A stretch of DNA of 64,000 nt from an uncultured Bacteroidota bacterium (lineage in GTDB: Bacteria; Bacteroidota; Bacteroidia; Bacteroidales; VadinHA17). Positions 17,058 to 48,051 of this stretch are shown here, piece after piece. The number at the start of each line of letters is the position of its first letter. The stretch's first letter is position 1. Made by a program: the position numbers and the translations under genes. The stretch is from NCBI GenBank assembly GCA_903824785.1, contig CAIJYD010000024.1, positions 1-64,000 of the forward strand, read 5' to 3'. The notes under the pieces are model-generated. The model worked only from the letters and a program-made list of their open reading frames with translations. It did not search any database and had not been told where the DNA came from.

Positions 17058-20000
17058 TTATTGCTTCAGACTATTTTCCCTCCACATCGACTGGAATAGC
17101 GGAACGACAAAGATTGTCATCACCTGTATTATCATTCCGCCAAATGCCGGGATTGCCATCGGGATCATAATATCAGCTCCTTTCCCGTTTGATGAAAGGA
17201 CAGGGAGGAGAGCAATAACTGCAACTGCAGTAGTCATCATCGCAGGCCGAACACGTTTTATTCCGGCAAGGATAACAGCTTCACGCACTTCATTAACCGT
17301 GGCCGGTTTTTTCTCTTCAAATACCTGGTGAATGTAGGTTCCCATTATTACACCATCGTTGGTAGCAATTCCAAAGAGAGCAATAAATCCTACCCATACA
17401 GCTACACTAAGGTTTACCTGATGCATCTGGAACATATCACGAAGGTTAATCCCTGCGGCAGAAAAGTTCATGAACCAATCCTGTCCGTACAGCCAGAGCA
17501 TAATGAATCCACCCGAGAAAGCAACAAATACTCCCGAAAAATGGATAAATGAAGCAGTAACAGACCTGAACTGGAGATAGAGTAACAGTAATATTAAAAT
17601 GAGACTGAGCGGAATAACCAGTGACAGTCTTTTGGCAGCCCTTAACTGTTCTTCATAATTTCCGGCAAATTTATAAGTAACTCCTGCAGGTAAGATGATT
17701 CTGCCCGAATGAATATTGTCTTTTAAGATCTTTTCGGCTTCCTGAACAACATCAACTTCAGCCCTGTCTTCCTGTTTATCAAATATGACATGTCCTACAA
17801 GAAAAGTGTTTTCACTTTTTATCATTTGTGCCCCTCTCGAGTATTCAATATCGGCAATCTCTCCCACAGGCACCTGCACTCCATTCATTGAGGGAATAAG
17901 GATCTGTTTCATATCCTCCGGATTATCACGCAGTTCGCGTGCATATCTTACCCGTACGGGAAATCTTTCGCGTCCTTCCACTGATGTTGAAAGAGACATA
18001 CCACCGACAGTAACCTGTAATACATCCTGCACATCACTTACAGTCATACCATATCGTGCCATTGCTTCGCGGTTAAGCTTTATCCCGAGGTAAGGAGCAC
18101 CCACTGCGCGGTCGTAGAATACTGAAGAAGCCTTTACTGAAGGAACTTCCTTTAATGCTTTTTCAAACAAAAGCCCTGCCTCTTCTATGGAATTAAGATC
18201 GGGACCGGATACTTTCAGTCCCATTGGTGCACGCATTCCTGTTGAAAGCATTACCAGGCGCGTCTCAATAGGTTGCAGTTTAGGAGCGGAAGTGAGGCCG
18301 GGTATATTGGTAACTTTTACAATTTCGTTCCAGATATCATCAGGATTTTTAATCTGCGGCCGCCACTGACGGAAATATTCTCCCCTGTCATCGAGTATAA
18401 GAAAACGGTTGAGATTTTCAGAAATATGTTGAAATAATGGAGTGCTGGCTGAGATAAACCATTTATCATTGACCAGAACATTAAACAGACTCTCTGCACG
18501 GTCATATTTAATATTTCTCAGGCTATCAGCCTCATTTTTAAATCCATCCAGATAAGCCATTCTTCTTAACTTCTCAACGTCGAGCATAAATTTCCCGTTA
18601 TCATCCACTTTGAATCTGATCCGATGGCCATTTTCATTAAGGATATATTCGGAGCGGTAGCTGACTGTGTTTTCAAACATCTGGACAGGAGCCGGGTCGA
18701 GAGCTGAATTTACCCTACCCCATTTGCCAACAGCCACCTCTACTTCCGGAATGGAGGAGAGACGTTTGTCGAGTGTTTTGATATATTCCAGGTTCTTTTC
18801 AATACCGGAATGAGGCATACTTGTTGGCATTAGCAAAAATGAACCCTCATTCAGCGAAGGCATAAATTCTTTTCCGGTTCCGGGGAAGGTCCTGCAGGGC
18901 TTTTCCCATAATGCGGTCTGACGGAATTTTTTCCAGCCTGACTTTTCTGCACCTGTGGCAATAATGCCGAATACTCTATCGAAGCCCTGCCATATAAGCA
19001 GTCCAAGAAAAAGAGTAAATGCCGGAACGATAAGAAATTTCCACTTATTCTGTAAGATGAGACGCATTATCTTCTCATAGTAATGTACCAAAGCCATCAG
19101 AGTGATAAGAATTACTCCAACGATTATTGTGACAAACAGAAAGTTAACAAAGATGGTGTTATGTGCACCCAGAGGCAGCCATCCGACTGAGAGATAATAT
19201 GCTGCAACGATTACGGTAATGAAGATATTTATGTAACCCGGATACTCTTTTCGTTTTGCAGACCATCTGTCATCAGTAAGGTTATTAATACCCAGAGCTG
19301 TTAAAGCCAGAACAGGTAATGAGTGCCAGAAAATAGCAAGGAAGAGGCCTGCGATAATAAGAAGGCCATTCCAGATCTTCCGGATTTTTTTTGTATCGAA
19401 GTGGAAGTCAAAGAGAATATGAACGAGTGTAGGTAATACCACTATGCCAAGAATAAAGGCTGAAAGCAGAGCAAATGTTTTTGTAAATGCAAGCGGATGG
19501 AATAGTTTACCTTCCGAAGCCTGCATTGCAAATACAGGAAGAAAGCTGACAATTGTTGTTGCAATAGATGTTACTACTGCCGCTCTGACTTCGGTGGTAG
19601 CCAGATAAATTACCTGCATAAGTTTTTTGCCGCGGATTCCTTTATTTTCGGGCATTTCCAGATGCCTTAGTATATTCTCAACGTCAACAATCCCGATATC
19701 AACCATTACACCAATAGCGATAGCAATACCAGACAGGGCTACAATATTGGCATCAATCCCGAAGAACCTCATCAGGATGAAAGTCATTAATACCCCTACC
19801 GGCAATAATCCGGCTACAATGAGGGAGGCTCTGAGATTAAGTACCAGAATAATTATCACAATTATGCTTATCAGGATCTCATGCGTCAAAGCAGATTCAA
19901 GTGTTCCGATTGTTTCCTGTATCAATCCGGCCCTGTCGTAAAACGGGACGATAGTTACTTTTGAAATAGTTCCGTCTTTCCAAGTTTTCTGAGGCAAACC

Positions 20001-20990
20001 GGCTTCAATATCTTTTATTTTCTCCTTAACATTATTAATAACCTCCATTGGATTTGAACCATACCGGGCAACAACCACTGCACCGACGGCTTCTGAACCG
20101 CCTTTATCGAGGCCGCCACGGCGTGTGGCAGGGCCAAATGCCACTCGTGCAATATCTTTAATCCGTACCGGGACATTATTACGAACTGTAATTACTGATA
20201 ATTCCAGATCTTCAAGGCTCTTCAGGTAACCCAGACCGCGGATAATATACTCGACATTGTTTAGTTCAATTGTTTCAGCACCAATATCAAGATTGCTTTT
20301 TCTTACGGCATTCATGACATCCATAACCGAAACATTGAAAGCCTTAAGGGCATAAGGATCAATATCGACCTGATATTCTTTGATAAACCCGCCAACGGAA
20401 GCAACTTCAGATACCCCTTCTGCGGAAGAGAGGCCATACTTAACATTAAAATCCTGTATAGTTCTTAGCTCCTGAGGATCCCAGCCACCATTAGGCTTTC
20501 CTGTTTTTGGGTCGTGTCCTTCGAGAGTGTACCAGAAAATTTGTCCCAGGGCTGTTGCATCGGGGCCTAAAGCAGGTTGAGTACCATCGGGTAGTGTACC
20601 TGATGGGAGCGAACTGAGTTTTTCAAGAATTCGTGAGCGGCTCCAGTAAAATTCAATATTGTCTTTGAAAATTATGTAAATGAATGACATGCCAAACATT
20701 GAAGTACTTCTGATTGTCTTAACCCCCGGAATCCCCAAAAGCGCTGAGGTTAGAGGATAGGTCACCTGATCCTGAATATCTTTTGGTGACCGGCCCATCC
20801 ATTCAGTTGTAATAATCTGCTGGTTCTCACCAATATCAGGTATGGCATCGACAGGTACCGGGTTGCGTGGCAAAAGGCCGGACTTCAGTTCGAAAGGCAT
20901 AGTTACCAGCCCCATAACAATAAATGCAATAAGGAACAGGAAAGTTATAAGCCTGTTTTCGAGAAAATATCTTACGAGTCTGTTAAACAT
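17058..20990 (-). CDS. cusA: CusA/CzcA-family heavy-metal RND transporter
   Basis: Inner-membrane proton-driven pump of the tripartite efflux system. Typical family features: start MFNRLVRYFLENR, periplasmic porter motif WMGRSPKDIQDQVTYPL, TM4 motif with acidic residues for proton relay (GIAIAIGVMVDIGIVDVEN), second-half motifs ATNDGVIMGTYI and IKRVRPAMMTTAVAVIALLPV. A Met-rich stretch TGMRAPMGLKV lies where CusA has its substrate Met residues, supporting Cu(I)/Ag(I). At 1310 residues it is about 270 longer than E. coli CusA. The extra length is in a hydrophobic segment after TM6 (about 545-690, several added TM helices) and an insertion in the second periplasmic half (about 790-880). Frame and stop are intact. 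Confidence 0.95.
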   Translation of the reverse strand: MFNRLVRYFLENRLITFLFLIAFIVMGLVTMPFELKSGLLPRNPVPVDAIPDIGENQQIITTEWMGRSPKDIQDQVTYPLTSALLGIPGVKTIRSTSMFGMSFIYIIFKDNIEFYWSRSRILEKLSSLPSGTLPDGTQPALGPDATALGQIFWYTLEGHDPKTGKPNGGWDPQELRTIQDFNVKYGLSSAEGVSEVASVGGFIKEYQVDIDPYALKAFNVSVMDVMNAVRKSNLDIGAETIELNNVEYIIRGLGYLKSLEDLELSVITVRNNVPVRIKDIARVAFGPATRRGGLDKGGSEAVGAVVVARYGSNPMEVINNVKEKIKDIEAGLPQKTWKDGTISKVTIVPFYDRAGLIQETIGTLESALTHEILISIIVIIILVLNLRASLIVAGLLPVGVLMTFILMRFFGIDANIVALSGIAIAIGVMVDIGIVDVENILRHLEMPENKGIRGKKLMQVIYLATTEVRAAVVTSIATTIVSFLPVFAMQASEGKLFHPLAFTKTFALLSAFILGIVVLPTLVHILFDFHFDTKKIRKIWNGLLIIAGLFLAIFWHSLPVLALTALGINNLTDDRWSAKRKEYPGYINIFITVIVAAYYLSVGWLPLGAHNTIFVNFLFVTIIVGVILITLMALVHYYEKIMRLILQNKWKFLIVPAFTLFLGLLIWQGFDRVFGIIATGAEKSGWKKFRQTALWEKPCRTFPGTGKEFMPSLNEGSFLLMPTSMPHSGIEKNLEYIKTLDKRLSSIPEVEVAVGKWGRVNSALDPAPVQMFENTVSYRSEYILNENGHRIRFKVDDNGKFMLDVEKLRRMAYLDGFKNEADSLRNIKYDRAESLFNVLVNDKWFISASTPLFQHISENLNRFLILDDRGEYFRQWRPQIKNPDDIWNEIVKVTNIPGLTSAPKLQPIETRLVMLSTGMRAPMGLKVSGPDLNSIEEAGLLFEKALKEVPSVKASSVFYDRAVGAPYLGIKLNREAMARYGMTVSDVQDVLQVTVGGMSLSTSVEGRERFPVRVRYARELRDNPEDMKQILIPSMNGVQVPVGEIADIEYSRGAQMIKSENTFLVGHVIFDKQEDRAEVDVVQEAEKILKDNIHSGRIILPAGVTYKFAGNYEEQLRAAKRLSLVIPLSLILILLLLYLQFRSVTASFIHFSGVFVAFSGGFIMLWLYGQDWFMNFSAAGINLRDMFQMHQVNLSVAVWVGFIALFGIATNDGVIMGTYIHQVFEEKKPATVNEVREAVILAGIKRVRPAMMTTAVAVIALLPVLSSNGKGADIMIPMAIPAFGGMIIQVMTIFVVPLFQSMWRENSLKQ

Positions 20991-21053: not shown

Positions 21054-21413
21054 TTATTTGCTTCTTTCATAATGGCAGCAGCCAGGCAAAGCATTGTATA
21101 CTTTATCATCAGCTTTGTATTTTTCAGTATCGTGTCCGGCTGCTGCCAGCTTCTTACTGAAAGCATCAACGTTAGTCTTAGAAGGATCGAATGTTACCGT
21201 TACCATCTTATTTTTTGAATCCCAGGCAGCCGAGGTTGCACCTTCTGCCTTTACTGTTTTTTCAATACGGTCTTTGCACATTCCGCAATTCCCGGATACT
21301 TTAAATGATTCGGTTTTCGTTGGGCTGTCAGCTTTCGCAACAGTTAGTGAAGAACCGTTTGTTACCACCGCCATCAATAGAATAGCAGTAATAAAAAGTT
21401 TTAATTGTTTCAT
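21054..21413 (-). CDS. Periplasmic HMA-domain metallochaperone-like protein
   Basis: A 119-residue secreted protein: signal peptide MKQLKLFITAILLMAVVTNG, then one heavy-metal-associated fold with ligand motif SGNCGMCKDRIE (about 40-51) and the usual beta-alpha-beta spacing (VTVTFDPSKTNVDAF). It ends in GHDTEKYKADDKVYNALPGCC followed by HYERSK, a Cys-Cys/His tail shared nearly word for word with the end of the CusB protein in the same operon. It probably binds periplasmic copper and delivers it to the pump (inference from family and position). It lies 63 bp upstream of cusA on the same strand. Confidence 0.88.
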   Translation of the reverse strand: MKQLKLFITAILLMAVVTNGSSLTVAKADSPTKTESFKVSGNCGMCKDRIEKTVKAEGATSAAWDSKNKMVTVTFDPSKTNVDAFSKKLAAAGHDTEKYKADDKVYNALPGCCHYERSK

Positions 21414-21484
21414 AGATAAATGTTTAAATGAATGATTAGTATTTCAATATAGTATAATATGACCCCAAAAAGAGTAACTTTTCC

Positions 21485-21621
21485 CATGAACTCACCCCCT
21501 GCTTCGCGTTGTTCAGCATCCCCCTCTCTGCTCCGCAAAGAGGGGCAGTAACATTCTGTATGCCTGTGCATTCCCCCTCTTTGTGGAGCAGAGAGGGGGA
21601 AAGGAAGGGGGTGAGTTCATG
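21485..21621. repeat. 137-bp imperfect palindromic element
   Basis: Outer arms 21485-21500 and 21606-21621 are perfect 16-bp inverted repeats; inner arms 21520-21545 and 21574-21599 pair over 26 bp with one G-T wobble. It fills most of the 323-bp gap between the HYC and HMA genes, inside an apparent operon, and holds no ORF. The right outer arm shares AGGGGGTGAGTTC with the end of the tandem repeat near 61.1 kb, so it belongs to the same loose class of dispersed intergenic elements. No insertion-sequence gene is present. Confidence 0.8.
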
Positions 21622-21736
21622 CGGACTGATAAGATTGGCGAAATCCATAAACAAAAGAAGTTGCATACAAGTAATAATACAAACAGAGACAACAGGCTAA
21701 AATTTATTTTGCCTGCAGAAAATTTGAAGGATCAGA

Positions 21737-22153
21737 TCAGATACGGAAGATACACAAAGCGGAACGCAAAGGAGAGTCAGGATTATTTAATCCCGGTGGC
21801 CTTATTGTTGTGTCAGTAGAGGTAATTACCGTCTCATAGAAAGAGAGAGGAACATCCGGGGCAAAGATCATCGAATGAACCTGCTGTGCAACCTCATCAA
21901 TAAAAAAGGATGAAGGTGTATAGTTATTGCATATTGAATAGGCTGAAGTGATATCTTCACAGCAGTAATTAGTCAGAATATCCTGAAATGGGATGCTGTG
22001 CGAATGACGTTCCATGCCGCATGTAGCTAATTCACCTGTTAGTGAGACTTTTGTTGCAGCAACATAACCACCACAAAAATGTGTAGCAAATTTAACACTG
22101 ATTCCAGAGAAGGTAAGAAGTATTATAAGCGGTATGGTTATTAAAGCCTTCAT
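21737..22153 (-). CDS. HYC_CC_PP-family protein
   Basis: Short secreted protein (138 residues) with signal peptide MKALITIPLIILLTFSGISVK and the signature THFCGGYV, TCGME, NYCCED and a late Pro-Pro (RPPGLNN), the features after which the HYC_CC_PP family is named. Members are found in Bacteroidota beside copper and heavy-metal efflux genes; the function is unknown, and periplasmic metal binding through the Cys and His residues is a reasonable inference. It heads the minus-strand metal operon, separated from the HMA gene by the palindromic element. The last 40 residues, rich in Thr/Ser, are less typical. Confidence 0.75.
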   Translation of the reverse strand: MKALITIPLIILLTFSGISVKFATHFCGGYVAATKVSLTGELATCGMERHSHSIPFQDILTNYCCEDITSAYSICNNYTPSSFFIDEVAQQVHSMIFAPDVPLSFYETVITSTDTTIRPPGLNNPDSPLRSALCIFRI

Positions 22154-22352: not shown

Positions 22353-23621
22353 TCAGAGAATCATACCTGCAGCAACAGTCTCATTTGTTCCTTCATCAAC
22401 AAATATCATGCTTCCGGTTATGTTATTTTTTTTGTAGGAATCAAAGAAGAGAGGTTTTGATGTTTTAATAGTGATCTCTGCAATATCATTCATATTAACT
22501 GTTGTGTTCTCAAAATCGTGCTCGAGGGTATTGATGTTCATCCTGTAGCTGATATTTTTTATTATGCCACCGGATTCGTTGCTGTTCAGTCTGATCAGAT
22601 ATTTTCCGCCGACCTTCATCGGACGTTCATTGAACCAGCAGATCATAAGTTTAATATCCTGGCTTATAACAGGTATATCGTTTGAAGCCACCAGCATATC
22701 GCCCCGGCTTATATCTATTTCATCTTCGAGGGAGATAGCAACAGAATCTCCTGCAATGCTCTCTGAGAGTGTTTTTCCGAGAACATCAATGCTTTTAATC
22801 TTTGATTTTCGCAGTGAAGGTAAAACAGTTATTTCATCCCCGGGCCTGAAAACGCCACCTGCTATCCGGCCTGCATAGCCTCTGTAATCATGAAATTCGG
22901 TGGTGTGTGGGCGGATAATTGTCTGAACGGGAAAGCGTTGATTCTCCGGATTTTTATTTTTTCTTATTTCAATGGTTTCAATCAGCCCCAGGAAAGTTTT
23001 GCCATTGTACCATTTCATATTTTCCGACCTGTCAACAACATTATCGCCATATTTTGCACTTAGCGGAATAAAGTGGGCATCGCTGATATTAAGTTTATTG
23101 ATGAGTAAACCCAGCTCCTCTTTTATTTTTGTGAATACTTTCTCGGACCAGTCGACCATATCCATTTTATTGATGCAGAATATAGTATGCCTTATATCGA
23201 GCAAAGATGCTATATATGAATGTCTTATGGTCTGTTCCAGAACCCCTTTACGGGCATCAATAAGAATTACTGCCAGGTCTGCAGTACTGGCTCCGGTTAC
23301 CATGTTTCGTGTATACTGAATATGTCCGGGAGTGTCGGCGATAATAAATTTTCTGGCAGGTGTGGCAAAATATCTGTATGCAACGTCAATAGTGATACCC
23401 TGTTCCCTTTCAGCTCTCAGTCCATCGGTCAGAAGGGAGAGATCAAGCTCTTCTCTTCCCAGACGTTTCCCGGACTGGACAATATGCTCCATCTGATCTT
23501 CGAAGATAGACTTGCTGTCGTAAAGTAAACGCCCTATCAGGGTACTCTTCCCATCATCAACGCTACCAGCTGTTGTAAACCTTAGAAGACTTTTGTTCGT
23601 GCTTTTTCCGTTAATTCCCAT
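22353..23621 (-). CDS. cysN: Sulfate adenylyltransferase subunit 1 (GTPase)
   Basis: GTP-driven regulatory subunit that powers formation of adenosine 5'-phosphosulfate (APS) by CysD. The translation-factor-like G domain shows G1 GSVDDGKSTLIG (about 17-28), G3 DTPGHIQYTRNM and G4 NKMD; two beta-barrel domains follow, as in EF-Tu-like proteins. Its 422 residues are normal for a CysN without fused APS kinase, and an APS kinase is encoded separately at 29.4 kb. It is the last gene of the pstSCAB-cysHDN minus-strand run, 140 bp after cysD; that gap contains a hairpin and short repeats. About 200 bp of featureless sequence separate it from the HYC gene. Confidence 0.95.
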   Translation of the reverse strand: MGINGKSTNKSLLRFTTAGSVDDGKSTLIGRLLYDSKSIFEDQMEHIVQSGKRLGREELDLSLLTDGLRAEREQGITIDVAYRYFATPARKFIIADTPGHIQYTRNMVTGASTADLAVILIDARKGVLEQTIRHSYIASLLDIRHTIFCINKMDMVDWSEKVFTKIKEELGLLINKLNISDAHFIPLSAKYGDNVVDRSENMKWYNGKTFLGLIETIEIRKNKNPENQRFPVQTIIRPHTTEFHDYRGYAGRIAGGVFRPGDEITVLPSLRKSKIKSIDVLGKTLSESIAGDSVAISLEDEIDISRGDMLVASNDIPVISQDIKLMICWFNERPMKVGGKYLIRLNSNESGGIIKNISYRMNINTLEHDFENTTVNMNDIAEITIKTSKPLFFDSYKKNNITGSMIFVDEGTNETVAAGMIL

Positions 23622-23657
23622 TTTCTCTCGTTACATAATTTTCTAATTCAAATAAAT

Positions 23658-23762
23658 GCTCAGGGCTCAGTGCTCAGTAAATGTACGGACCGCTCTGCCC
23701 TGTGCTCTACGCTCTGTGCCCTGACGAACCATGCGGTTGTCAGGGTCTTCGACTCTGTGCCC
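23658..23762. repeat. GCTCTGTGCCCT-type short repeats and hairpin between cysD and cysN
   Basis: Imperfect reiterations of GCTC-AGGG/GTGCCCT words occur six times in about 105 bp, and a strong hairpin (CCCTGAC 23719-23725 with GTCAGGG 23739-23745, inner AACC/GGTT) lies inside. Spacing is irregular and there are no spacers, so it is not CRISPR. It could affect the relative expression of the two subunits by mRNA folding. Confidence 0.6.
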
Positions 23763-24676
23763 TAAAAATAACCCTCCTTTTTCCTGTCTTCCATGGCGGC
23801 TTCAGACCGTTTATCATCATATCTTCCACCTCTTTCAGTGACTCTTGTAGCTGCTATTTCAGCAATTATCTCTTCAAGGGAGTCTGCTTTCGAGAGAGTT
23901 ACTCCGGTGCAGGTAATATCACCAATTGTCCTGCAGCGGACGTCGGTCTCGAAAACCTCCTCATTTGGTTTTAGCTGCATGAAGGGAGCCCATGCGAGAT
24001 AAACTCCGTTGCGGTTGAATATTTTTCTTTTGTGGGTATAATACAGTTCAGGAAGTTTGATATTTTCGTTCAGGATATACTGCCACACATCAAGTTCTGT
24101 CCAGTTGCTTATCGGGAACACTCTGAAATGCTCTCCGGAATGTTTTCTTCCGTTGAAGATATTCCATAGTTCTGGACGCTGGTTTTTAGGGTCCCACTGT
24201 CCGAATTCATTTCTGTGGGAGAAAAAGCGTTCTTTTGCGCGGGCTTTCTCTTCATCGCGGCGACCGCCTCCAATTGCGACATCAATCTGCAGTTCTTCAA
24301 CAGCATCCAGAAGGGTTACAGACTGCGCTTTGTTACGGCTGGCATTAACACCAAGTTCTTCAACAACTCTTCCTTTGTCAATTGAATCCTGAACATATTT
24401 GACAATAAGTTCTGCCCCGAATTCTTTTGCCAGATCGTCGCGGAACTTTAGTGTCTCTTCAAAATTGTGTCCCGTATCAATATGCATCAGGGTGAATGGG
24501 ATCCTGGCAGGCCAGAATGCTTTTCTGGCAAGATGAACCAGTACAATTGAATCTTTGCCACCTGAAAACAGCAAAACCTTTTTCTCGAACTGCGCCGCAA
24601 CTTCCCTCATCACAAAAATAGCTTCATCTTCAAGCTCCTTGAGATGTTCATCACTTATATTAATCTGATTCTTCAT
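23762..24676 (-). CDS. cysD: Sulfate adenylyltransferase subunit 2
   Basis: Catalytic ATP-sulfurylase subunit making APS from sulfate and ATP. It is a PP-loop (N-type ATP pyrophosphatase) protein with VLLFSGGKDSIVLVHLA (about 35-51), the family segment PFTLMHIDTGHNF, the loop AIGGGRRDEEKARAKERF and the C-terminal RCRTIGDITCTG then TERGGRYDD. Length 304 matches E. coli CysD (302). It starts 5 bp after the cysH stop, so tight coupling is expected; its partner cysN follows after a repeat-bearing gap. Confidence 0.97.
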   Translation of the reverse strand: MKNQINISDEHLKELEDEAIFVMREVAAQFEKKVLLFSGGKDSIVLVHLARKAFWPARIPFTLMHIDTGHNFEETLKFRDDLAKEFGAELIVKYVQDSIDKGRVVEELGVNASRNKAQSVTLLDAVEELQIDVAIGGGRRDEEKARAKERFFSHRNEFGQWDPKNQRPELWNIFNGRKHSGEHFRVFPISNWTELDVWQYILNENIKLPELYYTHKRKIFNRNGVYLAWAPFMQLKPNEEVFETDVRCRTIGDITCTGVTLSKADSLEEIIAEIAATRVTERGGRYDDKRSEAAMEDRKKEGYF

Positions 24677-24681
24677 TTTTT

Positions 24682-25377
24682 TTATTTAATATGACATCCG
24701 CACTCTTTAGGACCATCGTTTTCCCACCACCATCTGCCTGAGCGGAAATCCTGACCCTTAATTACAGCCCTGGTACATGGTTCACAACCGATGCTGACAA
24801 ACCCTTTATCGTGTAAGGAGTTATATGGAATATCATACTGTTTGAGATATCCTTCAACATCTTCAAGTGTCCAGTCAAATAGAGGATGGAACTTGAATAG
24901 TTTTTTATCAGGGTCATATTCAAGGTTGCTCATCAGGCTGCGATTGCCCGACTGATCAGCTCTGATTCCGGAGATCCAGCAATTCATGCCGGCTAAAGCC
25001 CTTGAGAGCGGAATAACCTTTCTCATTTTGCAGCACTCCTCCCGGTTCTCTACAGACTCGTAGAAACTGAAAGGTCCTTTTTCTGTTACCATTTTCTCAA
25101 CAGAAATATAATCAGGAAAACAGACGTTAATCTTTTTATTGTATTTAATAATAGTCCTTGAGAAGACATCGTATGTTTCAGGGAACAGTCTACCGGTATC
25201 AAGTGTTACAACTTTTATATCCAGATTGTTACTGAATATTTTATGAGTAATTACCTGATCCTCTATTCCAAAACTTGTAGTAAAAATTACCTTGCCGGGG
25301 TATAACGATACAAGCCTCATAAGCTGATCCTCAATGGTAATGCCTGCAAGTTGTGTTTTTAAATCATTCAAATTCAT
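24682..25377 (-). CDS. cysH: Phosphoadenylyl/adenylyl-sulfate reductase (APS-type)
   Basis: Reduces activated sulfate to sulfite using thioredoxin or glutaredoxin. The PAPS-reductase fold shows VIFTTSFGIEDQVI, VVTLDTGRLFPETY and ISGIRADQSGNRS. It has the Cys-Cys pair (REECCKMRK) and the CxxC pair (GCEPCTRA) that bind a [4Fe-4S] cluster in APS-using reductases and are missing in E. coli-type PAPS reductases, plus the C-terminal catalytic Cys in KECGCHIK. So the preferred substrate is likely APS, which would leave the product of CysC for other uses. 231 residues is typical. It is 49 bp downstream of pstB and 5 bp upstream of cysD. Confidence 0.93.
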   Translation of the reverse strand: MNLNDLKTQLAGITIEDQLMRLVSLYPGKVIFTTSFGIEDQVITHKIFSNNLDIKVVTLDTGRLFPETYDVFSRTIIKYNKKINVCFPDYISVEKMVTEKGPFSFYESVENREECCKMRKVIPLSRALAGMNCWISGIRADQSGNRSLMSNLEYDPDKKLFKFHPLFDWTLEDVEGYLKQYDIPYNSLHDKGFVSIGCEPCTRAVIKGQDFRSGRWWWENDGPKECGCHIK

Positions 25378-25426
25378 ATTGTTATTGTATATATTTGTAT
25401 ATCAACTAATTATATTTTCACTGCTA

Positions 25427-26266
25427 CTAACTGAAGCTTCCTGACAGGTATTCTTTTGTAAGCTGTTTTTTAGGATTTTTAAAGAATTCCTCAGTAGGAC
25501 CGGATTCAATTATTTTTCCAAGGTACATAAAGACAATATGGTCGGCTATCCGGCGGGCTTGCCGAAGGGTATGCGTTACAAGTATGATAGTGTATTTCTC
25601 CCTGAGTTTAATGAACAGTTCCTCAATTTTTTTGGTAGAGAGCGGATCGAGGGCAGAAGTAGCTTCATCACCAAGAATATATTCCGGTTCGATGGCGAGG
25701 CCTCTGGCCAGGCATAACCTCTGCTGCTGACCAATGGACAATCTTGATGCTGAAGTACGAATTCTGTCTCTTACTTCATCCCACAGACCTACATACTGAA
25801 GATACTGGATAACTGTCTGATTAAGAGCCTTCCTTCTTTTAATTCCATGAATACGGGGTCCGTATGCCACGTTGTCGAATATCGACATAGGCAATGGACA
25901 TGGCCTCTGAGCCAGCAATCCCATTTTTTTCCGGGTATCTATGACATTAACACCGGGGCTGTAAATATTTTCATCGTCGACAAAGACCTTACCACTGATT
26001 TTTACTTCAGGTGTTTCGTCGTGCATACGGTTGAGTGTTTTCAGAAATGTCGATTTGCCACATCCTGAAGGCCCGATAATACAGGTAATGCTTTTCTCAG
26101 GTATGGTGAGGTTGATGTCTTTTAAGATATGGTGATCTTCAATATAGACATCGAGATGCTCAATCTTAATGGATTGATTATTAATTACTTTTTTCAGAAG
26201 CGTTGGTTCTTTCATCTCAATGACAGAATTATCAGGTATTAGAGCCATTTGTTGGGTTATCATCAT
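25427..26266 (-). CDS. pstB: PstB-like ABC transporter ATPase (oxyanion uptake)
   Basis: ATP-binding subunit of a phosphate-type ABC importer. Walker A IGPSGCGKSTFLKTLNRMHD, Q-loop region MGLLAQRPCPLPMSIFDN, signature SRLSIGQQQRLCLARGLA (canonical LSGGQ has one change), Walker B ILGDEATSALDP (the family usually has L-L-D-E-P), H-loop VTHTLRQARRIADH. The overall PstB likeness (TLNRMHD, PMSIFDNVAYGPRIHG) is clear. A roughly 30-residue N-terminal extension precedes the domain; the second Met is also a possible start. It overlaps pstA by one base (TGATG) and is 49 bp from cysH. Context suggests sulfate as cargo rather than phosphate; this is inference. Confidence 0.9.
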   Translation of the reverse strand: MMITQQMALIPDNSVIEMKEPTLLKKVINNQSIKIEHLDVYIEDHHILKDINLTIPEKSITCIIGPSGCGKSTFLKTLNRMHDETPEVKISGKVFVDDENIYSPGVNVIDTRKKMGLLAQRPCPLPMSIFDNVAYGPRIHGIKRRKALNQTVIQYLQYVGLWDEVRDRIRTSASRLSIGQQQRLCLARGLAIEPEYILGDEATSALDPLSTKKIEELFIKLREKYTIILVTHTLRQARRIADHIVFMYLGKIIESGPTEEFFKNPKKQLTKEYLSGSFS

Positions 26267-27105
26267 CAGATTTTGTGTTTTGAAAATTTGGAACTAAAGT
26301 ACCTTGCCGAAAAACTCAGGATAAGGATCATCACGGTAAGGATGATTGCAGAGGCATAGGCACGGTTCTGAACCTCTTCCACAGGACTTCCGAGCTGGAA
26401 AAAGATTGAAAGGGGCAGTGTTGCGGCAGGAGAGCTGAGTGAGTCAGGGATGTTGTCAGTATATCCTGCTGTAAACAGGACAGTTGCAGCATCACCTATT
26501 CCTCTCCCAATGGCAAGCAATATTGCAGTTATCAAACCGGGGATAAGCTGCTTCAGAATAACCTTTATCATTTCATATTTAGTAGCACCCAGCGATAACA
26601 ATGCATCGGGAAGATCGCGGGAAAGCAGACGGGTTACCTCATCGAGCGAACGCATCATAAGTGGCATGATCAGCATTGCAACAGTTATTATTCCTCCTAA
26701 TAAAGAAGCCCGGATGCCAAGATAAATCATCAGGGCAAAGCCGAAAGCTCCGTAAACAATTGATGGTACGCCGAAAAGAATGTCAAGTGAAAAGCGGATA
26801 ATACTTGCGAACAAAGATTTCGCAGGAAGATAGAAATTGATATACATTACAAGCGGAACACTTATTACTGTGCTAATTGCAAGAGCTCCGAAGATAATAT
26901 AAAGTGATCCGATTATTGCATTCAGGACTCCGCCTTCCTTTCCGAGATAAAAACCACCACCGGGGACTTTTGTAACCATATCCAGTGTAAGAGCAGGCAA
27001 TCCTCTGTAAAAAACGGTTCCTATTATATAAACAAGAACGCCAAGTATGATCATCGCTGTGAGGATCATGATTATTTTAAATATTTTTTCTTCAATATAC
27101 TTCAT
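26266..27105 (-). CDS. pstA: PstA-like ABC transporter permease
   Basis: Inner-membrane permease of the phosphate-type importer, 279 residues with about six hydrophobic segments starting with IMILTAMIILGVLVYIIGTV. The cytoplasmic coupling loop SLGATKYEMIKVILKQLIPG is visible, followed by AIGRGIGDAATVLFTAGY, where classical PstA has a G-E-T-A-P-L-L-F-T-A pattern; the conserved Glu is Asp here and the Pro is Thr. This may point to a different oxyanion or just to lineage. It pairs with PstC (25 bp upstream). Confidence 0.88.
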   Translation of the reverse strand: MKYIEEKIFKIIMILTAMIILGVLVYIIGTVFYRGLPALTLDMVTKVPGGGFYLGKEGGVLNAIIGSLYIIFGALAISTVISVPLVMYINFYLPAKSLFASIIRFSLDILFGVPSIVYGAFGFALMIYLGIRASLLGGIITVAMLIMPLMMRSLDEVTRLLSRDLPDALLSLGATKYEMIKVILKQLIPGLITAILLAIGRGIGDAATVLFTAGYTDNIPDSLSSPAATLPLSIFFQLGSPVEEVQNRAYASAIILTVMILILSFSARYFSSKFSKHKI

Positions 27106-27130
27106 AATGAGCTAAAAACAGGACAAATAA

Positions 27131-28030
27131 TTATGAGAACTGATACCTTTTTTCAATCTGATTGAGAGTAAACCTTGAAAGGCCGTTAAATAACACTACT
27201 ATTATGAAGAGCAGGAAAGCTGAGAACATCAGAGCTGATTCATAACTTGGCATAGAAAGCATTTCGCCGTAGTTATTTGCGATAAGAGCGGGCAGGGGAT
27301 AGCAGGCATCAAAGACGGAATGTGGAATCTGGGTAATATTACCGCAAACCATTAGTACTGCCATTGTTTCACCAAAAGCTCTTGAGAGAGCAAGGACAAC
27401 TGCAGCGATGATTCCGGGGAATGATTTTCTCAGTATAACTTTCTTAACAGTCTGCCATTTGGTGGCTCCCAGACTTAAAGAGGCATCGGTCATTGCCTGT
27501 GGAATGGAACGGAATACTTCAACCATTATACTGATTAAAAGCGGAATGATCATTACAGCCAGAACAATGCCTCCGGCCAGAACGGTATAACCTGTGGAGA
27601 ACTCAACAAACCGGGGAGCTATTTTTCCGGCTATGAGCGGAACTACAGTTAAAGTACCCCATACTCCATATATTACAGGAGGTATGCCGGAGAGAAGATC
27701 AATTACCGGTTCAAAAAGCCGGCGGACTGTTCTGGAAGCATATGAGTTGAGATAGATACTTGTGAGGATAGAAAAAGGAAGGGCAATAATTATCGCAATA
27801 AGTGAAACATAAAGGGTACTGAGGATAAAAGGGAGAAACCCGAAATCGCCTTTAAAAGGTTTCCAGTTACTCGAGGAGAGCAATACCCAGAGGTTCTTCT
27901 CTTTCATAATCGGGAATGCTTTTAAAAAGAGGCTTATCCCTATCACAAGAAGAAGAAGAAGAGTAAAAATGGCTATCAGGACCATTAAATATCTGGCAGT
28001 TTTGTCTTTTATAACTCTTAACCTACGCAT
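27131..28030 (-). CDS. pstC: PstC-like ABC transporter permease
   Basis: Second inner-membrane permease (299 residues) of the same importer. N-terminal TM segment LMVLIAIFTLLLLLVIGISL, a periplasmic stretch, then a permease core with GIPPVIYGVWGTL, coupling loop SLGATKWQTVKKVILRKSFPG and ALSRAFGETMAVLMVCGN, a good match to the PstC consensus. Four bp separate it from pstS. Together with PstA it would form the heterodimeric channel. Confidence 0.9.
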   Translation of the reverse strand: MRRLRVIKDKTARYLMVLIAIFTLLLLLVIGISLFLKAFPIMKEKNLWVLLSSSNWKPFKGDFGFLPFILSTLYVSLIAIIIALPFSILTSIYLNSYASRTVRRLFEPVIDLLSGIPPVIYGVWGTLTVVPLIAGKIAPRFVEFSTGYTVLAGGIVLAVMIIPLLISIMVEVFRSIPQAMTDASLSLGATKWQTVKKVILRKSFPGIIAAVVLALSRAFGETMAVLMVCGNITQIPHSVFDACYPLPALIANNYGEMLSMPSYESALMFSAFLLFIIVVLFNGLSRFTLNQIEKRYQFS

Positions 28031-28034
28031 ATTT

Positions 28035-29030
28035 TTACTGTAACTTCTTTAGTTCGGACAATAACTTTTCTTTCGGGAGGGATATGTAACCGGCTTCATT
28101 AACGAATCTCTGCCCGTCAGATAAGACCCACCTGATAAATTCTGTCACTGTTTTGTTATTTTTAGGATTACCTTTCAGAACAAGAAAGAGCTCTCTTGCA
28201 GGAGGAGAGGGATATTTTCCTGAGGCAATTGCAGCTATCAGATCATTCATTGAATTATAAAAGTTCTCATCATTGTCGATCTTGCCGTTTCCGTTGAGAT
28301 CAACAGGTATAACCTTTATTCCTTTAAGCAGTTGCTTCGTTGCAGCATCATAAGCATAGCCGATATTATTAAATCCTATCCCAAGAGGGTCGTTTTTAAT
28401 TGCCTGTGCCAGCCCGGGATCACCAAAAACTCCTATCCCCAGCAGGTCTTCCTGCTTTTTATCAAAGAATTTTGCCCAGATCTCAGCAGCTCCGCAGGCA
28501 TCTGACCGTGTGTAAATATGAATCGGTGATTTTGATTTAGCCCCGAATGCCTGGGCCCAGGTTGTGTACCTGCCTGTTATCCAGATATCATTACCAACCT
28601 CTCTTCTTAAACCTCTTGTCATAATATCGTTCAGGGCAGGATTTTTATCACTTATAACAGCCACAACAGCATCTTTTGTTACCGCAATCGGGTAAGCTCC
28701 GTTTTTGAGCTCTTCGGGATATATTTCGCGCGAGACCATACCCATTTCCACCATTCCGTTAAGTGCATCAGAGATACCTTTTCCTGCACCACCCGCAGAG
28801 ATATCAAAACGCACTCCGGGATATGTTTTTTTATACTCATCGGCCCATTTTATTACCATTGGGTAAAGGGCAAAAGCACCAGAGATGCTTATCTGGCCGG
28901 ACCTCTTTTCCTGGCTGTAAGATTTTGGAACTGAGACTGTACAGGTAAGAATAAGAACGAGAAGAAAAGTATTGTTTATAAATTTCATTATGCCCTTTGA
29001 TACTGACGATATGATAATAGCTCTTTTCAT
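28035..29030 (-). CDS. pstS: PstS-like periplasmic oxyanion-binding protein
   Basis: Substrate-binding protein of the phosphate-type importer, 331 residues. The signal peptide is best explained by a start at Met15 (28988), giving MKFINNTFLLVLILTCTVS and cleavage near residue 40. The PBP domain begins ISGAFALYPMVIKWADEY (49-66). Anion-site motifs deviate from phosphate binders: the usual STT/ATF after SG reads AFA, and the Arg-x-x-Gly-Ser-Gly-Thr loop reads RSDACGAAE (175-183). Residues 244-255 (DLNGNGKIDNDE) form a textbook EF-hand calcium loop, not a standard PstS feature. It heads a seven-gene minus-strand run ending in cysHDN, with no phoU or phoBR nearby. Sulfate (or another oxyanion) is the likely ligand by context; phosphate is not excluded. 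Confidence 0.85.
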   Translation of the reverse strand: MKRAIIISSVSKGIMKFINNTFLLVLILTCTVSVPKSYSQEKRSGQISISGAFALYPMVIKWADEYKKTYPGVRFDISAGGAGKGISDALNGMVEMGMVSREIYPEELKNGAYPIAVTKDAVVAVISDKNPALNDIMTRGLRREVGNDIWITGRYTTWAQAFGAKSKSPIHIYTRSDACGAAEIWAKFFDKKQEDLLGIGVFGDPGLAQAIKNDPLGIGFNNIGYAYDAATKQLLKGIKVIPVDLNGNGKIDNDENFYNSMNDLIAAIASGKYPSPPARELFLVLKGNPKNNKTVTEFIRWVLSDGQRFVNEAGYISLPKEKLLSELKKLQ

Positions 29031-29431
29031 GGTTTTATGTTTACTTTCTCGGGCTTCAGAATAGAAATCTTGCTGATGCCCTGAGCAATAATAACTCCGT
29101 ATTATTTGATTTTTTATCTTTTCGTCAAAAGTAATTCAGCGAAAGGGATGATTCAGTAGTAATTATGCGATAAACAGATTGGTATTTATACATATATTTG
29201 TTTTGATAAGTTATTACAATTCAAGACAATTATTGATTGAATGCAAAAGCAGACATCTTTAGTTAACTAGTCAGCGGGTCAGTAGCTTTGTAAATATTTA
29301 ACCGGATAGTATTTATTAATAATATTACATTTAATCTGTTTCTCCTTGAATTTCTGGAAATGCATTGTTTTCAGTAGGGATTTTAACAGAATATGATTAA
29401 CTTTAAATAAGATTTATTACATACCAAACTC
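29031..29431. other. 400-bp divergent intergenic region, pstS / cysC
   Basis: AT-rich, no ORF and no riboswitch I can recognise. It must hold the promoters of both the pst-cys operon and cysC. A TATATTTG word on the plus strand at 29193-29200 resembles a -7 element but lacks a correctly spaced TTG and would leave a leader of about 225 nt. Confidence 0.5.
29126..29133 (-). promoter_or_regulatory. Candidate -7 element for the pst-cys operon
   Basis: The minus strand reads TACTTTTG, fitting the Bacteroidota TAnnTTTG consensus, about 95 bp upstream of the pstS start. No good TTG lies at the -33 position, so this is tentative. Confidence 0.3.
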
Positions 29432-29995
29432 ATGGTTAGCAAATCACTAAAAGAAAAATTTCTGAATCAGAAAGCAGTTGTATTATGGATGACCAGGCTT
29501 TCGGGTTCCGGGAAAACTACTCTGGCTGAAAATCTTGAAAGTGAATTGTTTTCAATGGGATATCTTGCACAAATTCTGGATGGTGATAATATGCGTTCCG
29601 GCATTAACAAAAATCTCGGATTTTCAGCAGAGGACAGAGAAGAAAACATAAGGCGTATTGCAGAAATTTCCAGGCTCTTTTTGAATTGCGGTTTAATTTG
29701 TATCAACAGCTTTATTAGTCCGACAAACAAGATCCGGGAAATGGCTAAGGATGTTATTGGCAGAGATAGTTTCATTGAAATTTTCCTTAATGCTCCTATT
29801 GAGATTTGTGAAAAAAGAGATGTGAAAGGGTTGTATAAAGCGGCAAGAGCAGGAAAGATTAAAAACTTTACAGGGATTGATTCTCCCTATGAAATCCCTA
29901 TGCATCCGGATATAGAAATTAATACCGGGGAGCTATCCGTTGAAGAATCAGTAGAAAAATGTATGAGAATAATTATTGAAAGGATAAGATCTTAA
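29432..29995 (+). CDS. cysC: Adenylylsulfate (APS) kinase
   Basis: Phosphorylates APS to PAPS. The 187-residue size and the motifs fit CysC: WMTRLSGSGKTTLAENLE (P-loop), LDGDNMRSGINKNLGFS, EDREENIRRIAEISRLF and NSFISPTNKIREMA, then GIDSPYEIPMHPDIEI. Oddities: the first Gly of the P-loop (usually G-L-S-G-S-G-K-T) is Arg22, encoded AGG, one base from GGG; and the usual SPY is SPT. These may lower activity or reflect a sequencing error. It is alone on the plus strand, divergent from the pst-cys operon, with a long leader region. Since CysH looks APS-type, PAPS may feed sulfotransferases instead. Confidence 0.93.
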   Translation: MVSKSLKEKFLNQKAVVLWMTRLSGSGKTTLAENLESELFSMGYLAQILDGDNMRSGINKNLGFSAEDREENIRRIAEISRLFLNCGLICINSFISPTNKIREMAKDVIGRDSFIEIFLNAPIEICEKRDVKGLYKAARAGKIKNFTGIDSPYEIPMHPDIEINTGELSVEESVEKCMRIIIERIRS

Positions 29996-47994: not shown

Positions 47995-48051
47995 AATTAA
48001 GTATTTATATTTAAGTTATTTCGTTTTTATGCCCTCATTATACCTCACTCC

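Follow-up and report, generated by a model that had tools for sequence, protein, structure and literature searches.

The locus described here lies in a window of 64,000 nucleotides (positions 1 to 64,000 of contig CAIJYD010000024.1, hereafter C24) from an uncultured Bacteroidota bacterium of the VadinHA17 lineage, whose 4.69-Mb genome assembly has a completeness of 97.8%. On the minus strand of this window, seven genes follow one another in the order pstS-pstC-pstA-pstB-cysH-cysD-cysN, with cysC divergent. Recomputed from pstS through cysN, the intergenic gaps are 4, 25, -1, 49, 5 and 140 bp, and no terminator-like site was called in the pstB-cysH gap. Gene order, divergent cysC and gaps are all as described in the initial annotation, which had also spoken of a phosphate-type transporter “fused” into a sulfate-assimilation operon: the two gene sets are indeed co-operonic, but no gene fusion is present. 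Pfam and NCBIfam searches agree with all eight gene identities.

The pstS-like gene (28035..29030) was called with 331 amino acids and encodes a substrate-binding protein that matches PF12849 (E 2.7e-32) and TIGR02136 (113.1 bits, below the cut-off of 206.6). Its true start is more likely Met15, at about 28988 (giving 317 amino acids), because the open reading frames of eight aligned relatives begin there. The invariant PstS motifs GAFALYP, GGAGKG, SRE and YTRSDACGAA (in the letters of the window protein) are common to the window protein and its relatives. The next three minus-strand genes encode a pstC-like permease (27131..28030; TIGR02138, 270.6 bits, above the cut-off of 196.45), a pstA-like permease (26266..27105; TIGR00974, 185.1 bits, just below the cut-off of 193.45) and a pstB-like ATPase (25427..26266; TIGR00972, 336.8 bits, just below the cut-off of 343.2). 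Thus, the best models of all four components are Pst families, yet only PstC exceeds the curated cut-off. Against the SulT-family models TIGR00968, TIGR00969, TIGR02139 and TIGR02140, the transporter proteins of the window score far below the cut-offs (for example 113.1 bits for PstB with TIGR00968, where 342.75 is required).

The sulfate-assimilation part of the operon, on the same strand, comprises cysH, of the adenosine 5'-phosphosulfate (APS) reductase type (24682..25377; TIGR02055, 239.0 bits, above the cut-off of 235.3; CC and CxxC cysteine pairs), cysD for the small subunit of ATP sulfurylase (23762..24676; TIGR02039, 408.5 bits, above cut-off) and cysN for its large subunit (22353..23621; TIGR02034, 542.3 bits, above cut-off). 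Since CysH scores as an APS-type reductase, CysD, CysN and CysH are needed to take sulfate through APS to sulfite; this path does not require CysC, the APS kinase encoded on the plus strand (29432..29995; TIGR00455, 228.7 bits). For a transporter within such a unit, sulfate import would be the simplest function. PstS would capture periplasmic sulfate, PstC and PstA would form the membrane channel, PstB would hydrolyse ATP, and the imported sulfate would be converted to APS by CysD and CysN and to sulfite by CysH, all from one transcription unit.

The same gene content could also belong to an ordinary phosphate importer that stands beside cys genes by accident: the family names are all phosphate-type, and the operon holds the single PstC above cut-off in the window genome. 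Tblastn searches, in which each family was represented by one or two reference proteins, gave no phoU, DUF47, PiT or SulP match in the window, in line with the initial annotation, which had seen no phosphate gene nearby, and PhoU (TIGR02135) gave no match at 1e-10 in the whole window genome. That genome has two PiT permeases adjoining a DUF47 protein on contig C101, an arrangement which we take to be typical of phosphate uptake. Phosphate therefore has a route independent of the pst-cys operon and would enter via PiT, which argues against the phosphate importer. Two further PstS-like proteins above the PF12849 cut-off are encoded in the genome, with no adjacent pst permease within 3.6-3.8 kb. 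The absence of SulP reported in the initial annotation is correct within the window, whereas the genome as a whole has one SulP, on contig C54; the absence of CysPTWA, likewise reported, concerns the window.

Linkage between the two gene sets was then examined in relatives. PstS clade members were collected with a profile of nine related PstS, strong members being those with E below 1e-105, and were found in 11/395 genomes sampled across the phylum, in 10/25 genomes of the window genus (the window genome included), in two more genomes of the window order and in 112/400 genomes of another order. All neighbourhoods of 131 distinct clade genomes, 22 from the phylum, genus and order searches and 109 from the other order, were read in stretches of 4 to 19 kb. 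Sulfate-assimilation genes lie in the stretch in 97/131 clade genomes (12/22, i.e. the window and 11 of 21 others, and 85/109), so the pst-cys linkage first noticed in the window is conserved across Bacteroidota and not unique to one genome. Among the 85 linked loci of the large set, 78 have the pst genes divergent from sir-cobA-cysG-cysH-cysD-cysN (as do loci L117 and L118); in the remaining seven, pst follows sir-cobA-cysG-cysH on the same strand, separated from it by a porin gene, cysD and cysN being shown in five. In these 85 loci, the distance between the pst genes and the nearest cys gene, measured between match ends, ranges from 131 to 1760 bp (median 190), and the whole sulfate route, from ATP sulfurylase to sulfite reductase and including siroheme synthesis, adjoins in 83/109 loci. 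In the window genus the order pstSCAB-cysH-cysD-cysN recurs in 8/10. In a locus of another family (L128), pstSCAB is surrounded by cysN, cysD, a cysK-like gene and cysH, the pst genes being placed between the cysK-like gene and cysH, and in a third family (L111) pstSCAB is found inside the run cysH-D-N-cobA-cysJ-I-porin-pstSCAB-cysG. The linked genomes thus come from four families with at least four arrangements, and such recurrence in different gene orders argues against chance placement.

As controls, we used 16 canonical pst loci, searched with the same queries as the clade loci: L105-L108 and the distant matches L017-L028, which were rejected as clade members and are ordinary pst loci. cys genes were present in 0/16 of these and phoU in 13/16; phoU was found in 0/131 clade loci (130 by the same queries, plus the window), as would not be expected of a phosphate importer. 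PiT is present in 20/22 clade genomes. Possession of the clade also goes together with cysD: in the window genus, cysD is present in 10/10 clade-bearing genomes (as fragments in G417) versus 5/15 without the clade (Fisher p 0.0009), and in the phylum sample in 9/11 versus 143/384 (p 0.004), both tests ignoring shared descent. In seven genomes of the genus, cysH or cysD is present but has no pst genes next to it.

We next turned to the ligand pocket of PstS. The phosphate contacts of E. coli PstS, which we take to be T10, S38, D56, R135, S139, G140 and T141, provided the numbering, and pocket positions were mapped by alignment in 137 distinct clade sequences and 12 canonical PstS, nine of them with phoU (seen in the locus, or annotated for E. 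coli) and three without. For comparison, Ser34, Ser62, Asp80, Arg159, Gly164, Thr165 and Asn201 are reported as phosphate contacts of PhoX, a PstS relative (PMC5439949). In the clade, the Ser38 and Thr141 positions are Ala in 137/137 sequences, the Ser139 position is Ala or Cys in 134 (Ser in three), the Thr10 position is Phe or Trp in all 137, and position 56 is Ser in all 137 and Asp in none; the residues at positions 135, 137 and 140 (Arg, Asp and Gly) are retained. Canonical PstS have Ser38, Ser139 and Thr141 in 12/12, and Asp56 and Thr10 in 8/12. The pocket substitutions are common to linked and unlinked clade members. A pocket without these hydroxyls, and with the Arg and helix N-termini, would favour a fully ionised dianion needing only hydrogen-bond donors.

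In a tree of 49 PstS proteins, 38 clade members stand apart from 10 canonical ones with a support of 88/95, which is good, not decisive, the tool having warned of long branches. An AlphaFold model of PstS (mean predicted local distance difference test score 77) has phosphate-binding proteins as its best Foldseek matches; model and matches support the fold only. Invariant loss of hydroxyls at phosphate-binding positions speaks against a phosphate importer and, taken with the evidence from phoU, PiT and gene order, makes that explanation very unlikely despite family names and fold matches that are all phosphate-type. Rather, the linkage to cys genes together with the loss of the residues that usually grip phosphate makes a sulfate importer the most likely function, and we consider it highly probable, judging from sequence comparison, that PstSCAB here is an ATP-binding cassette (ABC) importer whose substrate is sulfate, or at any rate the anion that feeds CysDN. 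The recruitment of a phosphate-type importer to sulfur nutrition put forward in the initial annotation thus appears supported by linkage, by a separate clade and by changed pocket residues. We would also expect a high affinity of the transporter for sulfate and an operon that responds to sulfur limitation.

The linkage points to a role in sulfur metabolism and leaves the exact ligand to be weighed. The cys neighbours could instead reflect import of a different sulfur anion or of a related oxyanion, the candidates being thiosulfate, a small sulfonate or sulfate ester, selenate, molybdate and tungstate; the pocket is unlike those of phosphate binders, the relatives with solved structures that sequence searches identify are distant, and the frequent presence of SulP in the same genomes (see below) leaves room for a second substrate. 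We regard this as rather unlikely, given that the whole sulfate route adjoins in most loci of the large set and is a route that sulfate needs, but whose first steps are generally bypassed by sulfonates.

Several observations weigh against sulfate import by this clade. Firstly, 87 of the 97 linked cases come from one family and are not independent; since the members of this large family are related, the strength of the linkage rests on repeated, differing arrangements more than on number. Secondly, 34/131 clade genomes are unlinked in the stretch, four such stretches (in the large family) being under 12 kb, and clade genomes G001 and G126 have no CysD at E 1e-60 in a search that did not cover other ATP sulfurylases. 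Thirdly, PstC passes the NCBIfam cut-off as a phosphate permease, the predicted fold of PstS is closest to phosphate-binding proteins, and Thr10 is not fixed among canonical PstS; loss of Asp56 was rejected as proof of specificity, Asp56 being absent also from 4/12 canonical PstS. Fourthly, clade genomes G282 and G108 lack PiT in a search that did not cover other phosphate importers, and 13/22 clade genomes have a PhoU-like match elsewhere in the genome. Finally, SulP is also present in 39/50 clade genomes examined, so that the Pst-type system would often be redundant. Because of this same co-presence, the ABC system may act alongside SulP as the importer of high affinity, needed at scarce sulfate.

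Other permeases of the clade genomes can be set beside this. Among the ten clade genomes of the window genus, SulP occurs in three (G000, G402 and G417), and the other seven (G395, G400, G410-G413 and G415) have a further, lower-scoring PiT permease with zero overlap with SulP; the two are possibly alternative sulfate permeases. In Carboxylicivirga linearis, the pstSCAB set is unlinked; downstream of it lie an outer-membrane channel gene (PF13372) and a gene for a PiT permease that scores best with the NCBIfam model of the sulfate permease CysP (237.8 bits, below the cut-off of 400), a neighbour that may hint at a sulfate role.

Many relatives have, beside the pst set, a gene for a porin-type outer-membrane protein (PF07396 or PF13372) or for a DUF2490 protein, and some an Rrf2 gene; in these relatives, such neighbours would contribute to uptake and to control. 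The stretches of 27/34 unlinked members (9/10 and 18/24) include a gene for an outer-membrane channel or a DUF2490 protein, and rrf2 is present in 7/10 versus 0/24 of them. In the window, cysC and the 401-bp spacer (29031-29995 together) take the place of the divergent rrf2 and porin genes of close relatives, so that the window genome is without rrf2 and porin beside its pst operon. Upstream of the porin gene, loci L007-L010, L012, L119-L122 and L124-L127 carry GTTAAGTATTWATAC, a conserved element resembling a palindrome, which differs at one or two positions in some of them and is a perfect inverted repeat in L119; in most of these loci it is followed by TTTTTATGCCAAT. GTTAAGTATTWATAC is a candidate Rrf2 operator or promoter. 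The divergent intergenic region of the window (29031..29431), presumably a promoter region, lacks the element that relatives have here, and a shared Rrf2 operator was rejected for the window, whose pst operon is without it. Two weak matches elsewhere in the window are near chance (mean 0.33 per shuffle, 4/100 shuffles reaching two), and the one at 47996 sits between unrelated genes.

These neighbours raise the question of whether the complex is a sensor and not a supplier, signalling sulfate outside the cell to the linked Rrf2 in the way that PstSCAB signals phosphate through PhoU. The presence of rrf2 in the stretch in 13/21 clade loci and the conservation of the palindrome-like GTTAAGTATTWATAC ahead of the porin gene within the genus would fit such a role, against which stand the 0/109 loci with rrf2 in the largest-family set and the fact that none was seen beside the window operon; Rrf2 proteins are not known to be controlled by ABC importers. 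A sensor is therefore extremely improbable.

Beyond sulfate import at the window locus itself, we regard it as probable that the clade represents a class of sulfate importer not recognised so far in bacteria: an ABC system of the Pst family in which phosphate-binding hydroxyls are replaced almost without exception, which in many lineages is accompanied by an outer-membrane channel gene of its own (PF07396, PF13372 or DUF2490) and in some by a gene for an Rrf2 regulator, and which occurs in at least eight Bacteroidota families under the name of phosphate uptake given by current models. It resembles PstSCAB of the E. coli and TIGR02136 types in the S-C-A-B order, the predicted fold and the pocket residues Arg135, Asp137 and Gly140, and differs in the lack of phoU in the loci examined, the changed Ser38, Ser139, Thr141 and Thr10 positions and the cys linkage. 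With CysPTWA/Sbp of the SulT family it would share function and operon logic, as well as linkage to sulfate assimilation, but its components are those of Pst families. No earlier report of a Pst-type ABC sulfate importer was found in the open-licence literature. A precedent for recruitment is CysP of Bacillus subtilis, a member of the PiT family and thus of a phosphate-importer family turned to sulfate, as described in PMC11535334; it is a single permease, unlike the ABC importer of the clade. The same paper describes a TauE-family sulfate importer in Pseudomonas fluorescens and Acidovorax, the Acidovorax one sharing an operon with assimilation genes (PMC11535334), which is likewise a recent and unexpected sulfate importer, but of a different protein family. 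If our interpretation is right, a Bacteroidota transporter clade is misnamed by family models, and therefore the pst-based capacity for phosphate uptake in these bacteria is overstated and sulfate uptake missed. The clade would also offer a natural test of the phosphate/sulfate switch in an oxyanion site, within the same fold and with few defined positions changed.

Other PstS-like proteins were encountered along the way. A second PstS family in the genus (11 loci, L090-L100) was not counted, having cys genes in none, no pstSCAB set and a different pocket; in L090-L099 the Ser38, Ser139 and Thr141 positions of this orphan family are Thr, Ser and Ala, respectively, and in L091 it adjoins an ABC-2-type membrane protein. 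A PstS-like domain with a weak PF12849 score is also part of a protein of about 580 amino acids in L101 (7309-9057, contig C37 of the window genome) and L102-L104; in L101 and L103 the domain is 25-28% identical to the window PstS. These proteins adjoin 4Fe-4S and NrfD-type membrane subunits, and that of L101 has in addition a glycine-cleavage-H-like domain (PF01597).

Finally, two sets of membrane proteins occur near cys genes. Of the seven genus genomes with cysH or cysD and no adjacent pst genes, four (L130:11060-11392, L132, L135 and L144, two of which were scanned) encode a small membrane protein of the DUF2061 family directly before cysH; this protein is a candidate for another membrane function connected with sulfur. 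Downstream of cysN in the window lie a resistance-nodulation-division (RND)-type efflux pump (PF00873) and small proteins (17058-20990 and 21054-22153), one small protein showing by eye a CxxC heavy-metal-like motif, and an RND-type pump is found at the same place in L008, L016, L119, L126 and L133.

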